A stretch of DNA of 32,925 nucleotides. It comes from Candidatus Amesbacteria bacterium RIFOXYB1_FULL_44_23. Lineage in GTDB: Bacteria > Patescibacteriota > Microgenomatia > CAZETR01 > Amesbacteraceae. A program made the translations under genes and the position numbers. Numbering within the stretch: position 1 is the stretch's first letter; the number at the start of each line of letters is the position of its first letter. The notes under the pieces are model-generated. The model was not told the origin of the DNA. It made no database searches and was given only the letters and a program-made list of their open reading frames with translations. Of the stretch, positions 3-24,861 are shown piece after piece. The stretch spans positions 1-32,925 of the forward strand of contig MEXR01000009.1 in the NCBI GenBank assembly GCA_001773775.1, written 5' to 3'.

Positions 3-2045
3 TTTTCATTCGCGGGATTAATCTGGGTATCATTTATCCGTCAAGGGTTGCTTCTTACAAAATTAAACACTTTTCTATTAAGTCAACTTGGGTTAATTGC
101 CGCACTTTTTCTTCCTTTCCCTTTTTTAATTGGGGGGCTAATGGTTACCAAAATAAAATCATCATTGGGCCAGTCTCATGTATTCATCGGCAGCTTAATT
201 GTCATAACGGCGCTGACTGGAATATTTCACAACGGCGAGTTAGGAACAAAACTCTGGTTAAATTCTAGTGTCTTTTTGTCCGAGCCCGGATCAATGTTAT
301 TTCTTATCGCCGGCTTGGGTGTCGGTTTAGTCATAATGTTTAACATTCCATTCGAAGACATTCTTAATTTCTTCGTTAAAATTTCTCAAAAAATTCCAAC
401 TAAATCAGTACTTACTCATACAGAAAAAGTCTCTCCTGCTTTAAAAATTTCCGGCATTTCCCCAGATCAGCCGCGTCAGCTCGAGATAAAAAACACTGGG
501 TTGCTCAATAAACCGGTAAGTTCAAAACCTCCCGCTTCCGCAGAAACAAAAAACCCAGCTCAACTTCCTTTATCTCCCCCCCTTGCCGCCACTAACTCCC
601 CATGGCACTATCCGCCAGTCTCATTACTCTCAGACAATATTTCCGGCAAAGCAGATCGTGGAAATGTCAATCAAAACGCAGGAATTATTGAAAAAACCCT
701 TGATGCTTTTGGGATAACCGCCAAAGTAGTTGAAGTTAACGGCGGACCGGCTGTAACTCAATATGCGCTTGAAGTTGCCATTGGTACCAAGTTAAGCAAG
801 ATCAACGCCCTCTCAAACGATTTGGCTTTGGCGCTAGCTGCTCCCACGGGTCAAATTCGTATCGAGGCTCCAATTCCTGGCAGATCCTTAGTCGGAATTG
901 AACTGCCAAATAAAGCTCCGGAATTTGTTAGTTTAAGAAAAATCGTTGACGAAGATCGGCTCAAACACCACAAAAGCAAGTTGGCTGTAGCCCTAGGCCT
1001 AGATGTTTCAGGCCAACCAGTTGTGGCCGACATAGGCAAAATGCCCCACATTCTGATTGCTGGACAAACCGGCTCGGGTAAATCCGTATGCATTAATGCA
1101 TTTTTGGCATCGCTGCTATTCCGATGTAGTCCTCAGGAGCTGAACTTAATTATGGTTGACCCCAAACGCGTGGAACTTACTGGGTATAACGGCATACCAC
1201 ATTTGCTTTGTCCAGTGATTGTAGAACCGGAAAAGGTTCTATCTGCTCTTAAATGGTCCATGGCCGAAATGGATCGTCGTTACAAGCTTTTTGCAGAGGT
1301 AGGGGTAAGAAATTTAGAAGGCTACAACGAACTTTCTGGCTTTCAGGCAATGCCATACATTGTTCTTTTTATAGACGAGTTGGCCGATATCATGTTATTT
1401 GCTCCAGTAGAAGTCGAGGACGCAATCACTCGGATTGCCCAGATGGCCCGGGCTACTGGTATCCATTTAGTTATTGCCACCCAACGACCATCAGTTGACA
1501 TTATTACTGGCTTAATTAAAGCCAACATACCCACCCGTGTAGCTTTTGCTGTTTCATCAATGATTGATTCTCGCGTCATAATTGACCAGCCAGGTGCCGA
1601 AAAACTTCTTGGCCGAGGCGACATGTTATATGTCCCCCCCGAAGCCGCAAAACCAACTCGTATCCAGGGAGCATTTATTTCTGATAAGGAGATCAAACAA
1701 TTAATTGAATTTCTAAAAAAACAGGGTGTTGCACCACATTACACAGACGAGATTACCTCAATGCCAATCGGCAACGGCCGTCGTGGTACCAAAGGAGCCG
1801 CTTTTATTTCCCCCAGTGGAGAAGAGCGAGATAGTATGTTTGAAGACGCGTTGCGTTTAATTATTCAAAATGACAATGCTTCCGCCTCATTTCTTCAAAG
1901 AAAACTCAGCGTGGGTTATGCTAGGGCGGCCAGGATATTAGACGAACTTCAACAATCGGGTTTTATCGGACCGGCAGACGGAGCCAAACCCCGCGAGATC
2001 CTAATTCACGAATTACCGGAATCATCAACTAATCAGACTTCATGA
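3..2045 (+). CDS. ftsK: DNA translocase FtsK/SpoIIIE, 5' partial
   Basis: ATP-driven double-stranded DNA translocase that clears chromosome termini through the division septum. The frame is open to the left window edge, so the true start lies upstream; the TTG at 48 is only the first start-like codon visible. The visible N-terminal part has hydrophobic segments (about nt 66-155 and 285-345) that fit the end of the FtsK membrane domain, then a short Pro/Ser/Thr-rich linker. The motor follows: Walker A GQTGSGKS at nt 1062-1085, Walker B LFIDELAD at nt 1365-1388, and the conserved ATQRPSVD segment at about nt 1480-1500. The C-terminus has a winged-helix gamma-like domain (SFLQRKLSVGYARAARILDE) that in the family reads KOPS-type DNA. 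The stop overlaps the next start (ATGA). Family assignment is certain; only the missing N-terminus is open. Confidence 0.96.
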   Translation, partial: FSFAGLIWVSFIRQGLLLTKLNTFLLSQLGLIAALFLPFPFLIGGLMVTKIKSSLGQSHVFIGSLIVITALTGIFHNGELGTKLWLNSSVFLSEPGSMLFLIAGLGVGLVIMFNIPFEDILNFFVKISQKIPTKSVLTHTEKVSPALKISGISPDQPRQLEIKNTGLLNKPVSSKPPASAETKNPAQLPLSPPLAATNSPWHYPPVSLLSDNISGKADRGNVNQNAGIIEKTLDAFGITAKVVEVNGGPAVTQYALEVAIGTKLSKINALSNDLALALAAPTGQIRIEAPIPGRSLVGIELPNKAPEFVSLRKIVDEDRLKHHKSKLAVALGLDVSGQPVVADIGKMPHILIAGQTGSGKSVCINAFLASLLFRCSPQELNLIMVDPKRVELTGYNGIPHLLCPVIVEPEKVLSALKWSMAEMDRRYKLFAEVGVRNLEGYNELSGFQAMPYIVLFIDELADIMLFAPVEVEDAITRIAQMARATGIHLVIATQRPSVDIITGLIKANIPTRVAFAVSSMIDSRVIIDQPGAEKLLGRGDMLYVPPEAAKPTRIQGAFISDKEIKQLIEFLKKQGVAPHYTDEITSMPIGNGRRGTKGAAFISPSGEERDSMFEDALRLIIQNDNASASFLQRKLSVGYARAARILDELQQSGFIGPADGAKPREILIHELPESSTNQTS

Positions 2046-2683
2046 AAACTGTTGGCCAGGTTTTAAAAGAAGCCAGACTAACCCAAAAATTAGAGGTGGG
2101 AGAGATTGCCGCCGTTACAAAAATCAGGTCTCAGTTTATTGAATTCTTGGAGTCAGATAATTTTAGACAACTTCCAAATGCCACAGTGGCTCGCGGCTTC
2201 ATTGCTAATTATGGCCAAGTATTAGGCCTGCGCCCAAAACAACTTATGGCAATTTTTAGACGCGATTTTGCGGAAAATGATCAAGGGCAAATCGTTCCCC
2301 GAGGCATGGTTGATCCGGTTACCAAAGATAGTATTTGGACACCTAAAAGCACCATTATTGCCTTGGTAGTGGCCATAATTGTCGTTTTTGTAATGTATCT
2401 TTCATATCAGTATTGGTTGTTGCTTGGACCACCTTCGCTCACACTCTCTTATCCTAGTGAAAATATTACAACTTCCGAAGTTACGGTCGAAGTTGCAGGA
2501 AAAACAGATCCCGAAGCAACAATCTCAGTAAACGGTCAATTATTAGTGCTCGAAAAGGGTGGCCAATTTTATGTGAGGCTTCCTCTTAATCCAGGTCAAA
2601 ACATACTCACAGTCACCGCCAAAAACAAAACCGGCAAAACAACCACCATTAATCGAACCGTTTTCTTGACACCAGACAACTAA
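2042..2683 (+). CDS. RodZ-like helix-turn-helix membrane protein
   Basis: A 213-residue protein with a cytoplasmic HTH of the RodZ type (HTH_25) at residues about 5-75, including VGEIAAVTKIRSQFIEFLE and the VARGFIANYGQVLGL segment. One transmembrane helix lies at about 104-126, and an extracytoplasmic beta-rich domain at about 131-210 resembles Big/glucodextranase-like folds. RodZ links the MreB cytoskeleton to the elongation machinery; no mreB is visible here, so the cellular role is inferred from architecture alone. It starts with an ATG that overlaps the ftsK stop by 4 nt, suggesting translational coupling and a joint division/shape operon. No Shine-Dalgarno is visible. The C-terminal domain differs from that of E. 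coli RodZ, so an envelope-sensing HTH protein is an alternative. Confidence 0.8.
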   Translation: MKTVGQVLKEARLTQKLEVGEIAAVTKIRSQFIEFLESDNFRQLPNATVARGFIANYGQVLGLRPKQLMAIFRRDFAENDQGQIVPRGMVDPVTKDSIWTPKSTIIALVVAIIVVFVMYLSYQYWLLLGPPSLTLSYPSENITTSEVTVEVAGKTDPEATISVNGQLLVLEKGGQFYVRLPLNPGQNILTVTAKNKTGKTTTINRTVFLTPDN

Positions 2684-2694
2684 CACCGTAACCT
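2666..2694 (+). promoter_or_regulatory. Candidate leaderless promoter inside the end of the RodZ-like gene
   Basis: TTGACA at 2666-2671, a 17-bp spacer and a weak -10 TAACCT at 2689-2694. The -10 ends 6 nt before the ATG at 2701, so transcription would start at the A of the start codon. The -35 is perfect but lies in coding sequence and the -10 matches only at T, A and the final T, so it is tentative. Confidence 0.35.
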
Positions 2695-2700
2695 TATTCC

Positions 2701-3042
2701 ATGACTTTAGTCATTCAGCTACTTTTAGCAGTCGTCATTACTACACTCACCTTTTTAATCAGTATCGCGGCGATTCAGGTCTTTCACATTTTGCACGAGT
2801 TTCGCCTGACCCTAAGGAAGGTTAACCATATTCTTGATAATACTCAGACTCTTTCTGATTCTGTCACCCGGCCAGTCTCAGCCGTCAATAATTTCTTTTC
2901 TGAAGTAAAAACCTTAATTAACACTACCCAGGATGAAATTATCGATAGCACCTCAGACAAAGTCATTCAAACTCCCAAACTGAATGATAAATCACCCCAC
3001 CACTTTTTCCGTCGCTCTGGTTTACCCCTTCGCAGTTCCTAA
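2701..3042 (+). CDS. Small single-pass membrane protein, unknown function
   Basis: A 113-residue protein. Residues about 3-28 form one strong hydrophobic helix, followed by an amphipathic, probably helical, segment (VNHILDNTQTLSDSVTRPVS) and a polar, basic tail. This outline is like short DUF948-type membrane proteins, but no motif fixes a family and I do not assign a function. It lies 17 nt after the RodZ-like gene on the same strand and could be cotranscribed with it or use the promoter at 2666-2694. It ends 8 nt before the convergent stop of the minus-strand gene, and no clear terminator lies between them. Confidence 0.65.
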   Translation: MTLVIQLLLAVVITTLTFLISIAAIQVFHILHEFRLTLRKVNHILDNTQTLSDSVTRPVSAVNNFFSEVKTLINTTQDEIIDSTSDKVIQTPKLNDKSPHHFFRRSGLPLRSS

Positions 3043-3050
3043 GCTGACTA

Positions 3051-3443
3051 CTATTCCCATTTCACATCTTCCGCCTGATTATTGTTCAGCTCAGTTAACC
3101 CCATTTGCTCCCGGATAGCCCTCGAACCAGAAAACCAGTTAGGGCGTCTGTTGCAATGCGCTTTTGTTGTTTCATTTACCTTTTGACCCCAGGTGACACT
3201 TGAAGGAATTATTGTTAATAACCCAAACCTGCCCACAGACACAACCACCACTTCTCTACATGTGTGATTCAGTGGGCACTTTCCACTTTCTCCGTAAACA
3301 CACACTCCTATTGTCCCGACTGTAATTTTTCTATCAGTCGTTAAAGCACTAAATCTTGCCTCAATAGGCGACCAATTATTATGCTGATCCGTTAAATGTT
3401 GACAAGTTATCCCCCGAACAACTAATGGAGTCTCGGGTCGCAT
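3051..3443 (-). CDS. Hypothetical Cys-containing protein (130 aa)
   Basis: An open frame of 130 codons on the minus strand that fills what would otherwise be the only gap over 300 bases (3043-3495). I do not recognise it. It has scattered Cys/His residues, notably the segment CVYGESGKCPLNHTC, which could bind metal, a hydrophobic beta-like middle and a polar C-terminus rich in Asn, Glu and Lys. No signal peptide or membrane helix is evident. Evidence that it is real: its length, the lack of any competing frame, and a TATACT hexamer (+ strand 3451-3456) placed 7 nt before its ATG, the same arrangement seen at other starts in this window. It is divergent from alaS with only 52 nt between the start codons. 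Confidence 0.55.
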   Translation of the reverse strand: MRPETPLVVRGITCQHLTDQHNNWSPIEARFSALTTDRKITVGTIGVCVYGESGKCPLNHTCREVVVVSVGRFGLLTIIPSSVTWGQKVNETTKAHCNRRPNWFSGSRAIREQMGLTELNNNQAEDVKWE

Positions 3444-20680: not shown

Positions 20681-21058
20681 ATGAGAGAAATTTCCAGTGA
20701 TCAGATTTTCGATTCTTCGGACCAAATTTGGAGTCGATTGAGACCATGTAAGGCTATTTATCCGAAAAAACCAAATGTATCTGGCGGAGGTGGTTATTCG
20801 CGGGAAAGCCCAAGACTTGTGAAGTCAGAATTCAAAGTTCCCTCAAACTGGGCAGTGCTCAAAACATTATCAGATGGGCAACCGATTTTGGACGAGAAGG
20901 GCCGGGAAATTACTCAAGTAACAGCAGGTGTTAGGCAGGTTCTGGTTCATGTATGCCAAAAACCATACAACGGCCTTTCCGATCGAGCTGGAGGTTTTTA
21001 TGCCCAATGGTCACCAACCACCCGAGAGATTAAAAATCGCCTCTACGATCCCCAGTGA
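20681..21058 (+). CDS. Hypothetical protein at the tail of the ribosomal operon (125 aa)
   Basis: A 125-residue soluble protein I do not recognise. It has no signal peptide or membrane helix. A Gly-rich turn (VSGGGGYSRESPR) near residue 35-45 precedes a compact part with GQPILDEKGREITQVTAGVR and GGFYAQWSPTTREIKN. The ATG at 20681 lies 1 nt after the rpsI stop, so it is probably cotranscribed; an in-frame start at 20600 inside rpsI is less likely. Its last 48 nt overlap the end of the convergent membrane-protein gene. It may be a lineage-specific gene. Confidence 0.6.
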   Translation: MREISSDQIFDSSDQIWSRLRPCKAIYPKKPNVSGGGGYSRESPRLVKSEFKVPSNWAVLKTLSDGQPILDEKGREITQVTAGVRQVLVHVCQKPYNGLSDRAGGFYAQWSPTTREIKNRLYDPQ

Positions 21059-21361
21059 AACCAGCACCACCTCAATGGCAACAACCTCACCAAAGCCATG
21101 AATTTTACTCTTTTTAAACCACTTCAGATTTAGAAGCAAACAAAGTGCCGGAAGACCGATATTCACTGAATTTATCAGTGCCTGACCAATTTTTAAGTTC
21201 TTAATTCCCGCCACAACCACATCGATTACATAATCTGTTCCCAGCGCCCAGGCCATACAGGCAGACAGCCAGTATACAATTGGTATTATTACAAACCCTA
21301 CATTAATTGCAGCAAACCTCACCACCTGACCATCTGCACTTACACCGCTCGCCTTTTTCAT
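21011..21361 (-). CDS. Small multi-pass membrane protein, unknown function
   Basis: A 116-residue protein with about three transmembrane helices (near residues 16-40, 60-80 and 91-112) joined by short basic loops (LKWFKKSKIHGFG). No family is recognised. It comes last in the minus-strand island, 29 nt after the Cache-HAMP receptor, and has its own TAAAAT 7 nt before its ATG, so it may be expressed separately. Its 3' end overlaps the convergent hypothetical gene by 48 nt. Confidence 0.6.
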   Translation of the reverse strand: MKKASGVSADGQVVRFAAINVGFVIIPIVYWLSACMAWALGTDYVIDVVVAGIKNLKIGQALINSVNIGLPALCLLLNLKWFKKSKIHGFGEVVAIEVVLVSLGIVEAIFNLSGGW

Positions 21362-21390: not shown

Positions 21391-22659
21391 TTATACCCCA
21401 GCTTTTAATTCCTTTAGTTCTTTCTTTAACTCCGTCATTACCAGCTCCCTCCCGACCATAAGTTTATTCATTCTTTCTAGCTCCATTAATTTCTCCTCCA
21501 AATCTTTTTTGGCTTGTTCCAGCTCTACCGTTCTTTCTTCAACTTTTTTTTCTAATTCTACGTAGTATCCCGATAGTTTTGTCGCCATGTCGTTAAACGT
21601 CTTAGCCAAATCTCCGATTTCGTCATGAGTCAGAATATCAATTTTAGTATCCCAATGGCCTTTACTGATGGCCACTGACGCATCCCTTAATTTAATTAGG
21701 GGATTAGTGATTCGTTTTGACAAATAAACACTTGCAATTGTAACCACCCCTAAACTTGCAATCGCAATCACTACAGAAGCTTTTATTATATCTTTTAGAG
21801 GTTCATACGCTTCGTGTATTGGTAACTCCACTACTACTGCCCAATCGGGGATTTCCAGCGCCACATGGCTGGTCACTACTTTTAAATTTCCAATCCCATT
21901 AGAAGTCACACTCCCTTCAGTAGTATGTTCTCCATTCACAAACCTTGCTACTTCATGCAAATTGCTCAAGTTTTCTCCGGCCAAAACTCGGCTAATGTCG
22001 CCATACGCTAGTAAATTTCCTTTTTTATCCACTACATAAGCCAGTCCATTTTTTCCAATTTTTATATTCCCCACCAAATCCCACATGAATTTCAAATTTA
22101 CCTCAGCTGCCAGTGAACCCAGGCTTTCACCAAAAGTATTTTGTATCGGAACTAAAATTGCCACCAGCGGTTCGCTGGTATTATTATCAATATAAACCGG
22201 ACTGATATATATGTTCCCTTTTTGGACATAGGGTAAAAAATCGTAATTAATCGCCTTTTCCAATTGACTTGGTTCAAAACTAGACAGCCTAGAAGTCTTC
22301 ATTTGCACCCCACCTACCATGTCAAAAATTAACAATTGTCGAAAAGAAATTTCTTTTCCCAGTAGTTTTTCCAAGTTCAATTTTAGTTGTTCAGAAGTGG
22401 CCGAAGATAAATTACTAAATTTTGAACTTGTTTCCAAAATTACTATTTTGTTTTGAACAAAATTCTTTACCACATTGGCTGCATCTTGAGCTACAATTTG
22501 TTGTTGAGAAGATATAAAATTTTGCTGCATCCGGTATTGGAAATATATTTCGAAGCTGATAATAGTCAACAAAATGCCTGTACATAAAATTAAAAACGTT
22601 GCAGCTAACGTAAACACCAAGCTACTGCTAGTTTTTTTATACCTGTCGGCAGACATCAT
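21391..22659 (-). CDS. Cache-HAMP membrane receptor without an output domain
   Basis: A 422-residue receptor. Transmembrane helix 1 is at about 13-38 and an extracytoplasmic double-Cache-like sensor at about 40-285 (NGLAYVVDKKGNLLAYGD and DWAVVVELPIHEAYEPL are typical). Helix 2 is at about 291-313 and a HAMP domain at about 314-365 (SKRITNPLIKLRDASVAISK, HDEIGDLAKTFNDMATKL). A coiled coil then runs to the end (KVEERTVELEQAKKDLEEK, then MNKLMVGRELVMTELKKELK). The protein stops where a histidine kinase, GGDEF or chemotaxis domain would normally begin. The NKLMVGREL-type coiled coil often precedes kinase domains in other bacteria. It lies 23 nt after two substrate-binding-protein genes, so these are its likely partners. 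The ATG is preceded by a weak GAAGGA. Confidence 0.85.
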   Translation of the reverse strand: MMSADRYKKTSSSLVFTLAATFLILCTGILLTIISFEIYFQYRMQQNFISSQQQIVAQDAANVVKNFVQNKIVILETSSKFSNLSSATSEQLKLNLEKLLGKEISFRQLLIFDMVGGVQMKTSRLSSFEPSQLEKAINYDFLPYVQKGNIYISPVYIDNNTSEPLVAILVPIQNTFGESLGSLAAEVNLKFMWDLVGNIKIGKNGLAYVVDKKGNLLAYGDISRVLAGENLSNLHEVARFVNGEHTTEGSVTSNGIGNLKVVTSHVALEIPDWAVVVELPIHEAYEPLKDIIKASVVIAIASLGVVTIASVYLSKRITNPLIKLRDASVAISKGHWDTKIDILTHDEIGDLAKTFNDMATKLSGYYVELEKKVEERTVELEQAKKDLEEKLMELERMNKLMVGRELVMTELKKELKELKAGV

Positions 22660-22682
22660 CTCTACGTGTCCTTCTAAACCTG

Positions 22683-23702
22683 TTAGCGAATAACTTTATT
22701 TGCCTTATTCAGCAAGCTTTCAGAGAGATTTATCCCCAATTCTGAAGCCATTTTGGCATTAAGAATCAGATACGTTTCTGGAGAAACCACCGGAATAATT
22801 CCGGCTGACGTCCCTTGTAAAATTTTGTTCGCCAATCGCGCCGCTAGTACTCCAATCTCTGAGGTGTCCACAGTTACTGCAAAAACTGTTCCATAATCAT
22901 CTAAAGTTACAGACGAACCACCTACTGGAATTTTTTTCACCCGGGTGTATTTTGCTATCGCGGCAAAGGCTTCCTTGGTAGTAGAAAGAGATTCAGGGAT
23001 AAACAAAACTGCTCCAAAGCCCAAATCCTTGTTTTTTGCCCGATTTGCTAATTCCGCCTGCAAAGCGACTAAATTTTCAGAAGGAAACTCAATCAAAGTC
23101 AGACCCAAGGACTTAGCTGCTGGACGTACCACATCCAGTTCTGCTGGCACCGATGGATAACCTTTTTGGTAAGGCAACCAGATCTGTTTTACCTGAGGCA
23201 CAACTTCGTGTAATACCTCCAGCCGCCTTATCGCAACGTCAGTATTCGGATACCGAACTCCCGTGATATTTCCCCCTGGAGCTCGTATGCTGTTAACCAG
23301 ATTATTTCCTTCGGTAAAGGCATTTGCAAAAACCACCGGTATGTCAGTTCCCTTTGTGGCCTCTTTTGCTTCCAAAGCTGCCTCAGTGTTATACGCCAAA
23401 ATTAAATCCACTTTTTCATCAACGAACTTCTTGAGTATTAGCTTTTCCTTATCCGGCTCAAAGTTGGTCTTTTGTAAATCATAAGTTATGTTTTTTCCAT
23501 CTACGTATCCCAAACCAGTCATCTCCTGTATAAAACTGTCGGCAATGCCGGAAAACAGATTCAGCCCTGACAAAATCCCTACTCGGTACGCCCCTTTTTT
23601 GTAATTTGATCTTTTTTCTCCTTTTGTCAAAATATACCCTACTCCTATCACTATTCCCAAAATCACAATTAATAAAATAACGGCCTTCTTGTTCATAATC
23701 AC
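22683..23702 (-). CDS. ABC-type substrate-binding protein, PF04392 type, copy 2
   Basis: A 339-residue periplasmic-binding-protein fold of the ABC_sub_bind (TrpX/DUF534-like) family. An N-terminal hydrophobic anchor (residues about 7-25) has no lipobox Cys, so the protein is probably membrane-tethered and not a lipoprotein. Two lobes follow; conserved phrases are YRVGILSGLNLFSG, GYVDGKNITYDLQ, IPVVFANAF, NITGVRYPNTD and the C-terminal INLSESLL. It is a close paralogue of the gene just upstream. The start is GTG 23702, overlapping the previous stop (GTGA), or ATG 23696. No permease or ATPase of an uptake system is nearby, which points to ligand sensing with the receptor downstream. Confidence 0.85.
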   Translation of the reverse strand: MIMNKKAVILLIVILGIVIGVGYILTKGEKRSNYKKGAYRVGILSGLNLFSGIADSFIQEMTGLGYVDGKNITYDLQKTNFEPDKEKLILKKFVDEKVDLILAYNTEAALEAKEATKGTDIPVVFANAFTEGNNLVNSIRAPGGNITGVRYPNTDVAIRRLEVLHEVVPQVKQIWLPYQKGYPSVPAELDVVRPAAKSLGLTLIEFPSENLVALQAELANRAKNKDLGFGAVLFIPESLSTTKEAFAAIAKYTRVKKIPVGGSSVTLDDYGTVFAVTVDTSEIGVLAARLANKILQGTSAGIIPVVSPETYLILNAKMASELGINLSESLLNKANKVIR

Positions 23703-24717
23703 TTTACTATTTCAATTGATCTACTTAACAACCCCTCGCCCACAGTCAACCCCAACTTCTTTGTCAGTTTATAATTTATCCGCAAGTCATTATCTGCCGT
23801 TACTACCGGAATAGTACCAGCCGAGATCCCCTTTAGCACCTTATTAGCAATTGGCGCCGCCAGTTTTCCGAACTTCAAATTATCCGGATGAAAACCCACA
23901 ATCGGTCCACTAGCCTCTTTCAAAATCAAAGCGCTGCTTATAGGCAGCCTGTATTTGTCGGCAAACTTGTATATTACCTCGTTCACTTCCGGAGTGACCG
24001 AAAACGGCTCTACTAATTCCAATATCGCATCTATCCCCGGATCTTTTGCAGCCATCCTCCCATCCAAATACTCTTTCACTTCGGCCGCATTTTCAAACGG
24101 CATTATTGTTAAAGTGATACCCATTTTTCTTGCTGCTAAATTCAACTCCGCAATTTGCGATGGAACAGTCGGGTAATTTTTTAAATAGGTAGCCCACACT
24201 CTCTTCACTTTTGGCGCAATCTCATGCAAAAGCTCCAATCGACCCACCGCACTTTCCGTAGTTGGGTACCGGACTCCAGTAATGTTATTACCTGGAGTCC
24301 TGACATTCTGTACCAAGCCAGTCCCCTCGATAAACGCTAGTCCAAAAACTACCGGCACACCAGAACCTTCAGCCACCTTTTTAGTTTCTATGGAGATTTC
24401 AGTACCAATCGGGAACAACAAATCCACTTTCTCTTCAATCATCTTTTGTACCGCTTTTTCATTCCCGATTGGTTGAGATGCCGAAAACACATCGTATGTC
24501 ACGTTCCTACCTTCTACATAGCCCAACTCTCTCATTGCCTCTTTAAAAGAATCCTGTACGTTTGAAAAAAAGGGATCGAAATCAAAACACCAATTTTGTA
24601 AGTTTTTTTGGATTGTGCTTCTTGTTTTTCTTTTGCCAACCAAACCCATCCTCCAACTACCACGGCCAACACTACCACCAAAACAACCACCACAGCTCGA
24701 AATTTTTTATTAATCAC
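23699..24717 (-). CDS. ABC-type substrate-binding protein, PF04392 type, copy 1, with apparent -1 frameshift
   Basis: Same family and layout as copy 2, but the reading frame is split. From GTG 24717 the first frame gives the anchor and first strand (INKKFRAVVVVLVVV, then YKIGVLISIPFF) and would stop at 24532. The rest of the protein (NVQDSFKEAMRELGYVEG to the end) is in the -1 frame. The change falls at a run of seven T on the minus strand (+ 24565-24571). Joining the frames there gives a protein of 339 residues, exactly the length of copy 2. Explanations: an assembly or sequencing indel, a true inactivating deletion, or slippage at the run. It lies about 70 nt after tRNA-Pro. Confidence 0.75.
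24565..24571 (-). other. Slippery-type T7 run at the frame change
   Basis: In the upstream frame the run reads as T-TTT-TTT, the X-XXY-YYZ arrangement of a -1 slip site, followed by CAA in frame 0 or TCA after slipping. No strong downstream stem or pseudoknot is obvious by eye. It marks the frame change and does not prove programmed shifting. Confidence 0.4.
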
Positions 24718-24790
24718 AAACCCTCATATTTATTAGAACACGTCCCCAAACGAAAGTCCAGCCAACCTGAGGCGGCTGACTCTCTCTGTG

Positions 24791-24861
24791 TCGGGGAAGG
24801 CAGAATTGAACTGCCGCCAGACGCACCCCATGCGCCTATTCTACCGTTAAACTATTCCCCG
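24791..24861 (-). tRNA. tRNA-Pro (GGG)
   Basis: A 71-nt cloverleaf on the minus strand. Acceptor CGGGGAA pairs with TTCCCCG and the discriminator is A. The D arm has the GG of the D loop; the anticodon stem GGCGC/GCGTC encloses loop ATGGGGT (anticodon GGG, U33 and G37 present); the variable loop has 4 nt; the T arm is GGCAG/CTGCC with loop TTCAATT. C1-G72 fits a bacterial tRNA-Pro. The 3' CCA is not encoded (CAC follows), so CCA must be added by an enzyme. The 73-nt gap to the next minus-strand gene holds only a short imperfect inverted repeat. Confidence 0.93.

Follow-up and report, generated by a model that had tools for sequence, protein, structure and literature searches.

The minus-strand island described here probably serves as one input module of a signalling hub in which many sensors act on one kinase, in a manner resembling the chemoreceptor/CheA system but based on a kinase of the ordinary type. 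The island contains two genes for PF04392 binding proteins and a gene for a 422-amino acid receptor. It lies in a window of 32,925 nucleotides, this term being used for the whole stretch of DNA that was analysed, which is contig 9 of the 1.1-Mb genome of Candidatus Amesbacteria bacterium RIFOXYB1_FULL_44_23 (62 contigs, about 92% complete). Most of the named relatives of this genome, judged by sequence, are Patescibacteria. It is also quite possible, although we would stop short of calling it probable, that this hub is one example of a coupling module, consisting of a C-terminal plug on diverse kinase-less sensors and a matching coil on one kinase per genome, operating without MCPs or CheA, with a CheY-like output and possibly type IV pili as its target. 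No description of such a tail-kinase module was found in the literature searched, of which coverage was partial, and the motif was not printed there. The features of the island are listed in Table 1.

Table 1. Positions of the island features and of the bordering tRNA gene in the window
Feature	Position	Strand	Basis or remark
First PF04392 binding protein, N-terminal membrane anchor, no lipobox, frameshifted	23699..24717	-	Pfam and reading
T7 run marking the change of frame in the first binding protein	24565-24571	-	Direct reading
Second PF04392 binding protein, N-terminal membrane anchor, no lipobox, intact	22683..23702	-	PF04392, 7e-42
Kinase-less receptor: TM, dCache, TM, HAMP, coiled-coil tail	21391..22659	-	Pfam, AlphaFold, structure matches
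dCache_1 domain, receptor residues 49-278	21826..22515	-	Pfam, 9e-16
HAMP domain, receptor residues 313-363	21571..21723	-	Pfam, 2e-13
C-terminal coiled-coil output tail, receptor residues 379-422, MNKLMVGRELVMTELKKELKEL	21394..21525	-	Common to five other proteins of the genome
tRNA-Pro (ggg)	24790..24861	-	Borders the inserted cassette; landmark only

The island and its genomic setting

The original prediction, which was made from the sequence alone, described two tandem PF04392-type proteins with an N-terminal helix and no lipobox, and Pfam bears out the family (7e-42 and 3e-30). A hydrophobic helix opens each protein, direct reading found no lipobox cysteine in either, the two are 39% identical to each other, and the second has relatives in the PDB (3lft, 3lkv). 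That prediction had missed, however, that the first gene is split by a frameshift at the T7 run: a separate frame of 61 codons (24717-24532) encodes the start and the membrane anchor, and the body, which gives the PF04392 match (23699-24649, minus strand), lies in a different one. As all of the remaining body beyond the T7 junction is an open frame, the change of frame may reflect a sequencing or assembly error, slippage, or a real and fresh frameshift mutation. The run also matches the U UUU UUU slippery heptamer for -1 slippage.

The receptor is, as predicted, a Cache-HAMP protein ending in a coiled coil: Pfam identifies dCache_1 and HAMP, followed by no recognisable domain, and its reading frame is intact. 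The AlphaFold model shows a single unbroken helix from residue 347 to residue 421 of 422, and the best structural matches are chemoreceptor models and the dCache domains of chemoreceptors. HisKA and HATPase_c are absent from the receptor in the Pfam scan, as is the MCPsignal domain (PF00015), the scan yielding dCache_1, HAMP and a sub-threshold coil. The Pfam match of this coil to the HIP1 clathrin-binding family fell below the cut-off and was set aside as coiled-coil cross-talk. An ERT motif, KKVEERTVEL, directly precedes the tail on direct reading, and no clear RxWY-type motif of the amino-acid-sensing dCache domains was seen in the receptor by eye.

A gene for a 116-amino acid membrane protein (21011-21361) adjoins the receptor gene. 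Small membrane genes similar to it adjoin rpsI in two relatives (L219 and L222; by eye), so this gene is probably a resident lying outside the cassette. The proposed site between a tRNA gene and a ribosomal gene was confirmed by comparison within the family, rpsI and tRNA-Pro flanking the island. Family relatives have rpsI, tRNA-Pro and the gene preceding recA as near neighbours, with none of the island genes among them, most clearly at loci L222, L227 and L229, and the tail protein was absent from all 13 family relatives examined. This spacing and this absence suggest that a three-gene cassette was probably gained between the 116-amino acid membrane gene and tRNA-Pro, or else lost from every relative sampled. 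The island was also correctly said to contain no transporter or kinase gene.

A conserved C-terminal tail

The tail of the receptor has the consensus ELExxNKxMVGRELKMxELKKEI and recurs on other sensors. A profile of the last 50 residues, made from two sequences, detected six tails in the genome of the window, each on a different sensor: the dCache-HAMP receptor of the window; a helical-HAMP protein on contig 19, the gene of which is flanked by those of a PF04392-like protein and a receiver; a HAMP protein on contig 59, adjoining an SBP_bac_1 protein; a PAS protein, also on contig 59; a CHASE4-PAS protein on contig 1; and a small membrane protein on contig 16. All six stop within a few residues of the motif, and of 88 tail proteins encoded at the loci retrieved, 84 end no more than 30 residues past it. 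The tail is thus a conserved terminal module and not a stump. The Pfam content of the 88 proteins is of the input type (PAS, HAMP, dCache, CHASE4 and GAF); kinase and receiver queries matched none of them, HisKA and HATPase_c are not in their listed Pfam families, and MCPsignal (PF00015) is not among their 25 commonest ones.

Conservation peaks in the tail and not in HAMP. Arg404 of the receptor, in the RELxM motif of its C-terminal tail, is invariant over all 88 tails, and Glu405, Met408 and Lys412 are nearly so. The tail profile matches the receptor, a training member, with an E-value of about 6e-18, and proteins outside the training set with E-values of 1e-20 to 1e-17; the best of 5,293 reversed open reading frames reached E = 0.07, a control ruling out a low-complexity artefact. 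In surveys restricted to genomes of Patescibacteria, a tail was found in 44 of the 380 genomes of a phylum sample. A search of plasmids with the consensus tail, a short and therefore weak query, gave no match at E 0.1, and none of the solved structures matched the tail. A Myxococcales locus (L067), retrieved among five loci with a single-tail query, was discarded as a relative, because its match is apparently just an ERT-type coil inside a kinase. VGREL-type C-terminal coils similar to this tail may occur in PAS proteins of other phyla, which would lower its novelty. One protein (L066, 5371-6321) ends in two tandem tail motifs immediately upstream of a kinase of the type described below, and two others (L090, 9705-10883; L112, 9561-10271) have in common an extra helical stretch of about 65 residues C-terminal to the tail.

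A candidate partner kinase

Tail genes are frequently followed by a histidine kinase gene, which is directly downstream (+1) in 32 of the 88 cases and within +3 in 46, as against one case within -3 upstream and a background frequency of 6 in 608 genes. The order across loci is tail gene, histidine kinase, and then a single-domain CheY-like receiver. The tail-adjacent kinases have a common coiled-coil element, KAxLNxLED (‘NILED’), between the sensor part and PAS-HisKA. The genome of the window encodes a single NILED kinase, a protein of 796 amino acids (contig 19:2237-4627) with the architecture dCache-HAMP-NILED-PAS-HisKA-HATPase, the gene of which is directly followed by one for a CheY-like receiver; there are, thus, six tail sensors for one NILED kinase. 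No CheA was found in this genome (about 92% complete), the HATPase matches being five sensor kinases and GyrB. The suggestion that the island is a ligand-sensing module signalling through its coiled coil to a partner encoded elsewhere gains support from this conserved terminal tail together with a candidate kinase on another contig (19, the receptor being on 9). Two points speak against the hub: the kinase and the receptor are on these different contigs, and the kinase is equipped with a dCache-HAMP sensor itself and thus has no evident need of further ones.

NILED kinases occur in 37 of the 380 genomes of the phylum sample, and tails accompany them in 35 of the 37. Since most of the kinases behind the NILED profile were tail-linked themselves, two controls were needed. 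Tails were present in 10 of the 12 NILED genomes outside the training set of the profile, and a class sample of 374 genomes, largely separate from the phylum sample with few genomes in common, contained 22 genomes with NILED, 22 with tails and 19 with both (Fisher p about 1e-23, two training genomes being left out and the kinship of the genomes being uncorrected). The matches are distributed over many families. A single NILED kinase is encoded by 48 of the 53 genomes with both elements, and 32 of the 53 carry more than one tail, the maximum being six. Eleven of 64 tail genomes had no NILED match at E 0.001, and some of these have a kinase adjoining a tail gene, with only a divergent NILED element. 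Co-inheritance as a gene cassette could also mimic an interaction. The anatomy and terminal position of the tail, the gene order, the co-occurrence, the fusions considered below and the copy numbers are computed results.

It seems unlikely, although this reading deserves consideration, that the tail and the NILED kinase belong to one pathway without docking on each other, the tail instead stabilising the receptor dimer or binding the receiver or a pilus protein, and mixed dimers forming via HAMP or the ERT-type coil. In its favour, a stretch of 142 residues around the second membrane helix, HAMP and the ERT-type coil shows 31% identity between the receptor and the hub kinase, and the tail receptor gene of contig 19 is followed by a receiver and no kinase; but it is the tail rather than HAMP that is most conserved, many tail proteins lack HAMP (there is a match in 26 of the 88), and the fusions place the tail immediately before NILED. 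Two genomes encode such a fusion, a single protein with the tail, a short break, NILED, PAS, HisKA and HATPase. The AlphaFold model of a fusion assigns the tail and NILED to different helices, divided by a low-confidence break at 143-148. A receptor running on into a kinase, envisaged at the outset as a sign that the copy in the window is simply truncated, is therefore partly borne out, as the tail does so in these two genomes; they are exceptions, and are read as fusions of two partners.

Docking of the tail on NILED is also preferred to decay. The other suggestion made at the outset, that the island is a decayed two-component system with a disappearing receptor from which truncation has removed the kinase half, would fit the tail inside a full kinase in these two relatives and the frameshift in the neighbouring binding protein gene, but it is highly improbable: the same C-terminus recurs in 84 of 88 proteins and in six sensors of a single genome, which already contradicts it; moreover, the tail is the best conserved part of a receptor with an intact frame.

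Inputs to the proposed hub

Binding proteins repeatedly adjoin tail receptors, and belong to several families (PF04392, SBP_bac_1/8, SBP_bac_5, Bmp and Peripla_BP_4); there are two more such pairs in the genome of the window. PF04392 proteins usually serve ABC transporters, and TrpX is the best NCBIfam match, albeit below threshold, but it is scarcely credible that they are part of an uptake system encoded elsewhere, next to an unrelated receptor, given this range of families beside tail receptors, those further pairs, and the absence of any PF02653 permease match from the genome (about 92% complete, the search having covered PF02653). The check for a consistently linked permease and ATPase, as expected of a PF04392 ABC transporter, found neither in the island and no permease linked. 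The stimulation of receptors by binding proteins is well known (PMC9602780, PMC10384115). At one locus from Patescibacteria UBA3531 (L065), a tail protein, a PF04392 protein, a tail receptor, a NILED kinase and receivers are encoded in one row. Inside this row is a 614-amino acid protein (1565-3406) in which a PorA-like N-terminal part precedes a fused PF04392 binding domain. Tail genes also have FIST and hemerythrin proteins as neighbours (three of each), which are possible further soluble sensors of the hub.

Proposed mechanism

In the proposed mechanism, a ligand would be caught outside the cell by the membrane-anchored binding proteins, which would not feed any transporter, and the loaded binding protein would contact the dCache domain of the receptor. 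The resulting change would be relayed across the membrane and via HAMP to the C-terminal coiled-coil tail, which would engage the separate NILED kinase (here, the 796-amino acid protein of contig 19) and set its activity. The kinase would then phosphorylate the neighbouring single-domain CheY-like receiver. The five other tail sensors would act on the same kinase, a single enzyme thereby integrating several inputs, as CheA does for chemoreceptors, and the output would be control at the protein level, with the type IV pilus genes close to the kinase as a possible target. We infer the docking of the tail on NILED, the flow of the signal, the ligand and the pilus output with support falling in that order.

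Comparison with known systems

Among the closest parallels to the proposed hub is the MCP/CheA/CheY system, in which many kinase-less receptors likewise act, via a cytoplasmic coiled coil, on one shared kinase and a single-domain receiver; MCPs, like the receptor described here, often have a Cache-HAMP architecture and are sometimes fed by binding proteins. By contrast, the receptor of the window has no MCPsignal domain, its genome has no CheA, and the kinase is an ordinary PAS-HisKA-HATPase protein. LuxP-LuxQ is of the three-component type, with a binding protein, a receptor that is itself the kinase, and a regulator. The RetS/LadS-GacS multikinase network likewise brings several sensors to bear on one kinase through protein contact; RetS and LadS have kinase-type domains, whereas the tail sensors have none. 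CuaDSR, another three-component system, resembles the island in having an extracellular binding protein that is encoded beside the receptor and proposed to present the ligand to it, but that receptor is the kinase itself, whereas the one in the window has no kinase domain (PMC10384115). The S-helix is a conserved parallel coiled coil with an ERT motif such as that of the receptor, but it is almost always found between two domains, whereas the tail ends the protein (in 84 of 88) and has a motif of its own (PMC1592074). The CheA3/CheA4 split kinases similarly distribute signalling functions over separate chains that must meet, although it is the catalytic steps that are split there, and the sensor from a complete kinase here (PMC3591291).

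If the proposed scheme is true, a shared plug would explain how small genomes with few kinases integrate many cues, and would provide a role for orphan binding proteins and kinase-less receptors, which are usually dismissed as remnants. Patescibacteria account for a very large share of bacterial diversity, and those that have been cultivated live attached to other microbes.

Probable output and a possible link to pili

The receivers encoded downstream of NILED kinases are nearly all single-domain proteins, of 120-154 amino acids, so the output of the hub is probably exerted by protein contact. A T2SSE/PilB-type ATPase is encoded within 10 kb of the NILED kinase in 20 of the 53 genomes, the expected number being at most 5.2, and in the genome of the window the NILED kinase and a pilus cluster are both on contig 19. 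This proximity of genes suggests that the hub perhaps controls type IV pili, which is the least certain part of the scheme. The regulation of pilus extension and retraction in Patescibacteria was listed among the open questions in a 2025 study (PMC12206443), and the hub, if true, would be a testable candidate for this control. Contig 19 also carries five tandem, nearly identical pilin-like genes encoding proteins of alternately 171 and 173 amino acids (L004, 5706-8323), which adjoin the pilus assembly genes and the NILED kinase and may constitute a pilin variation array.
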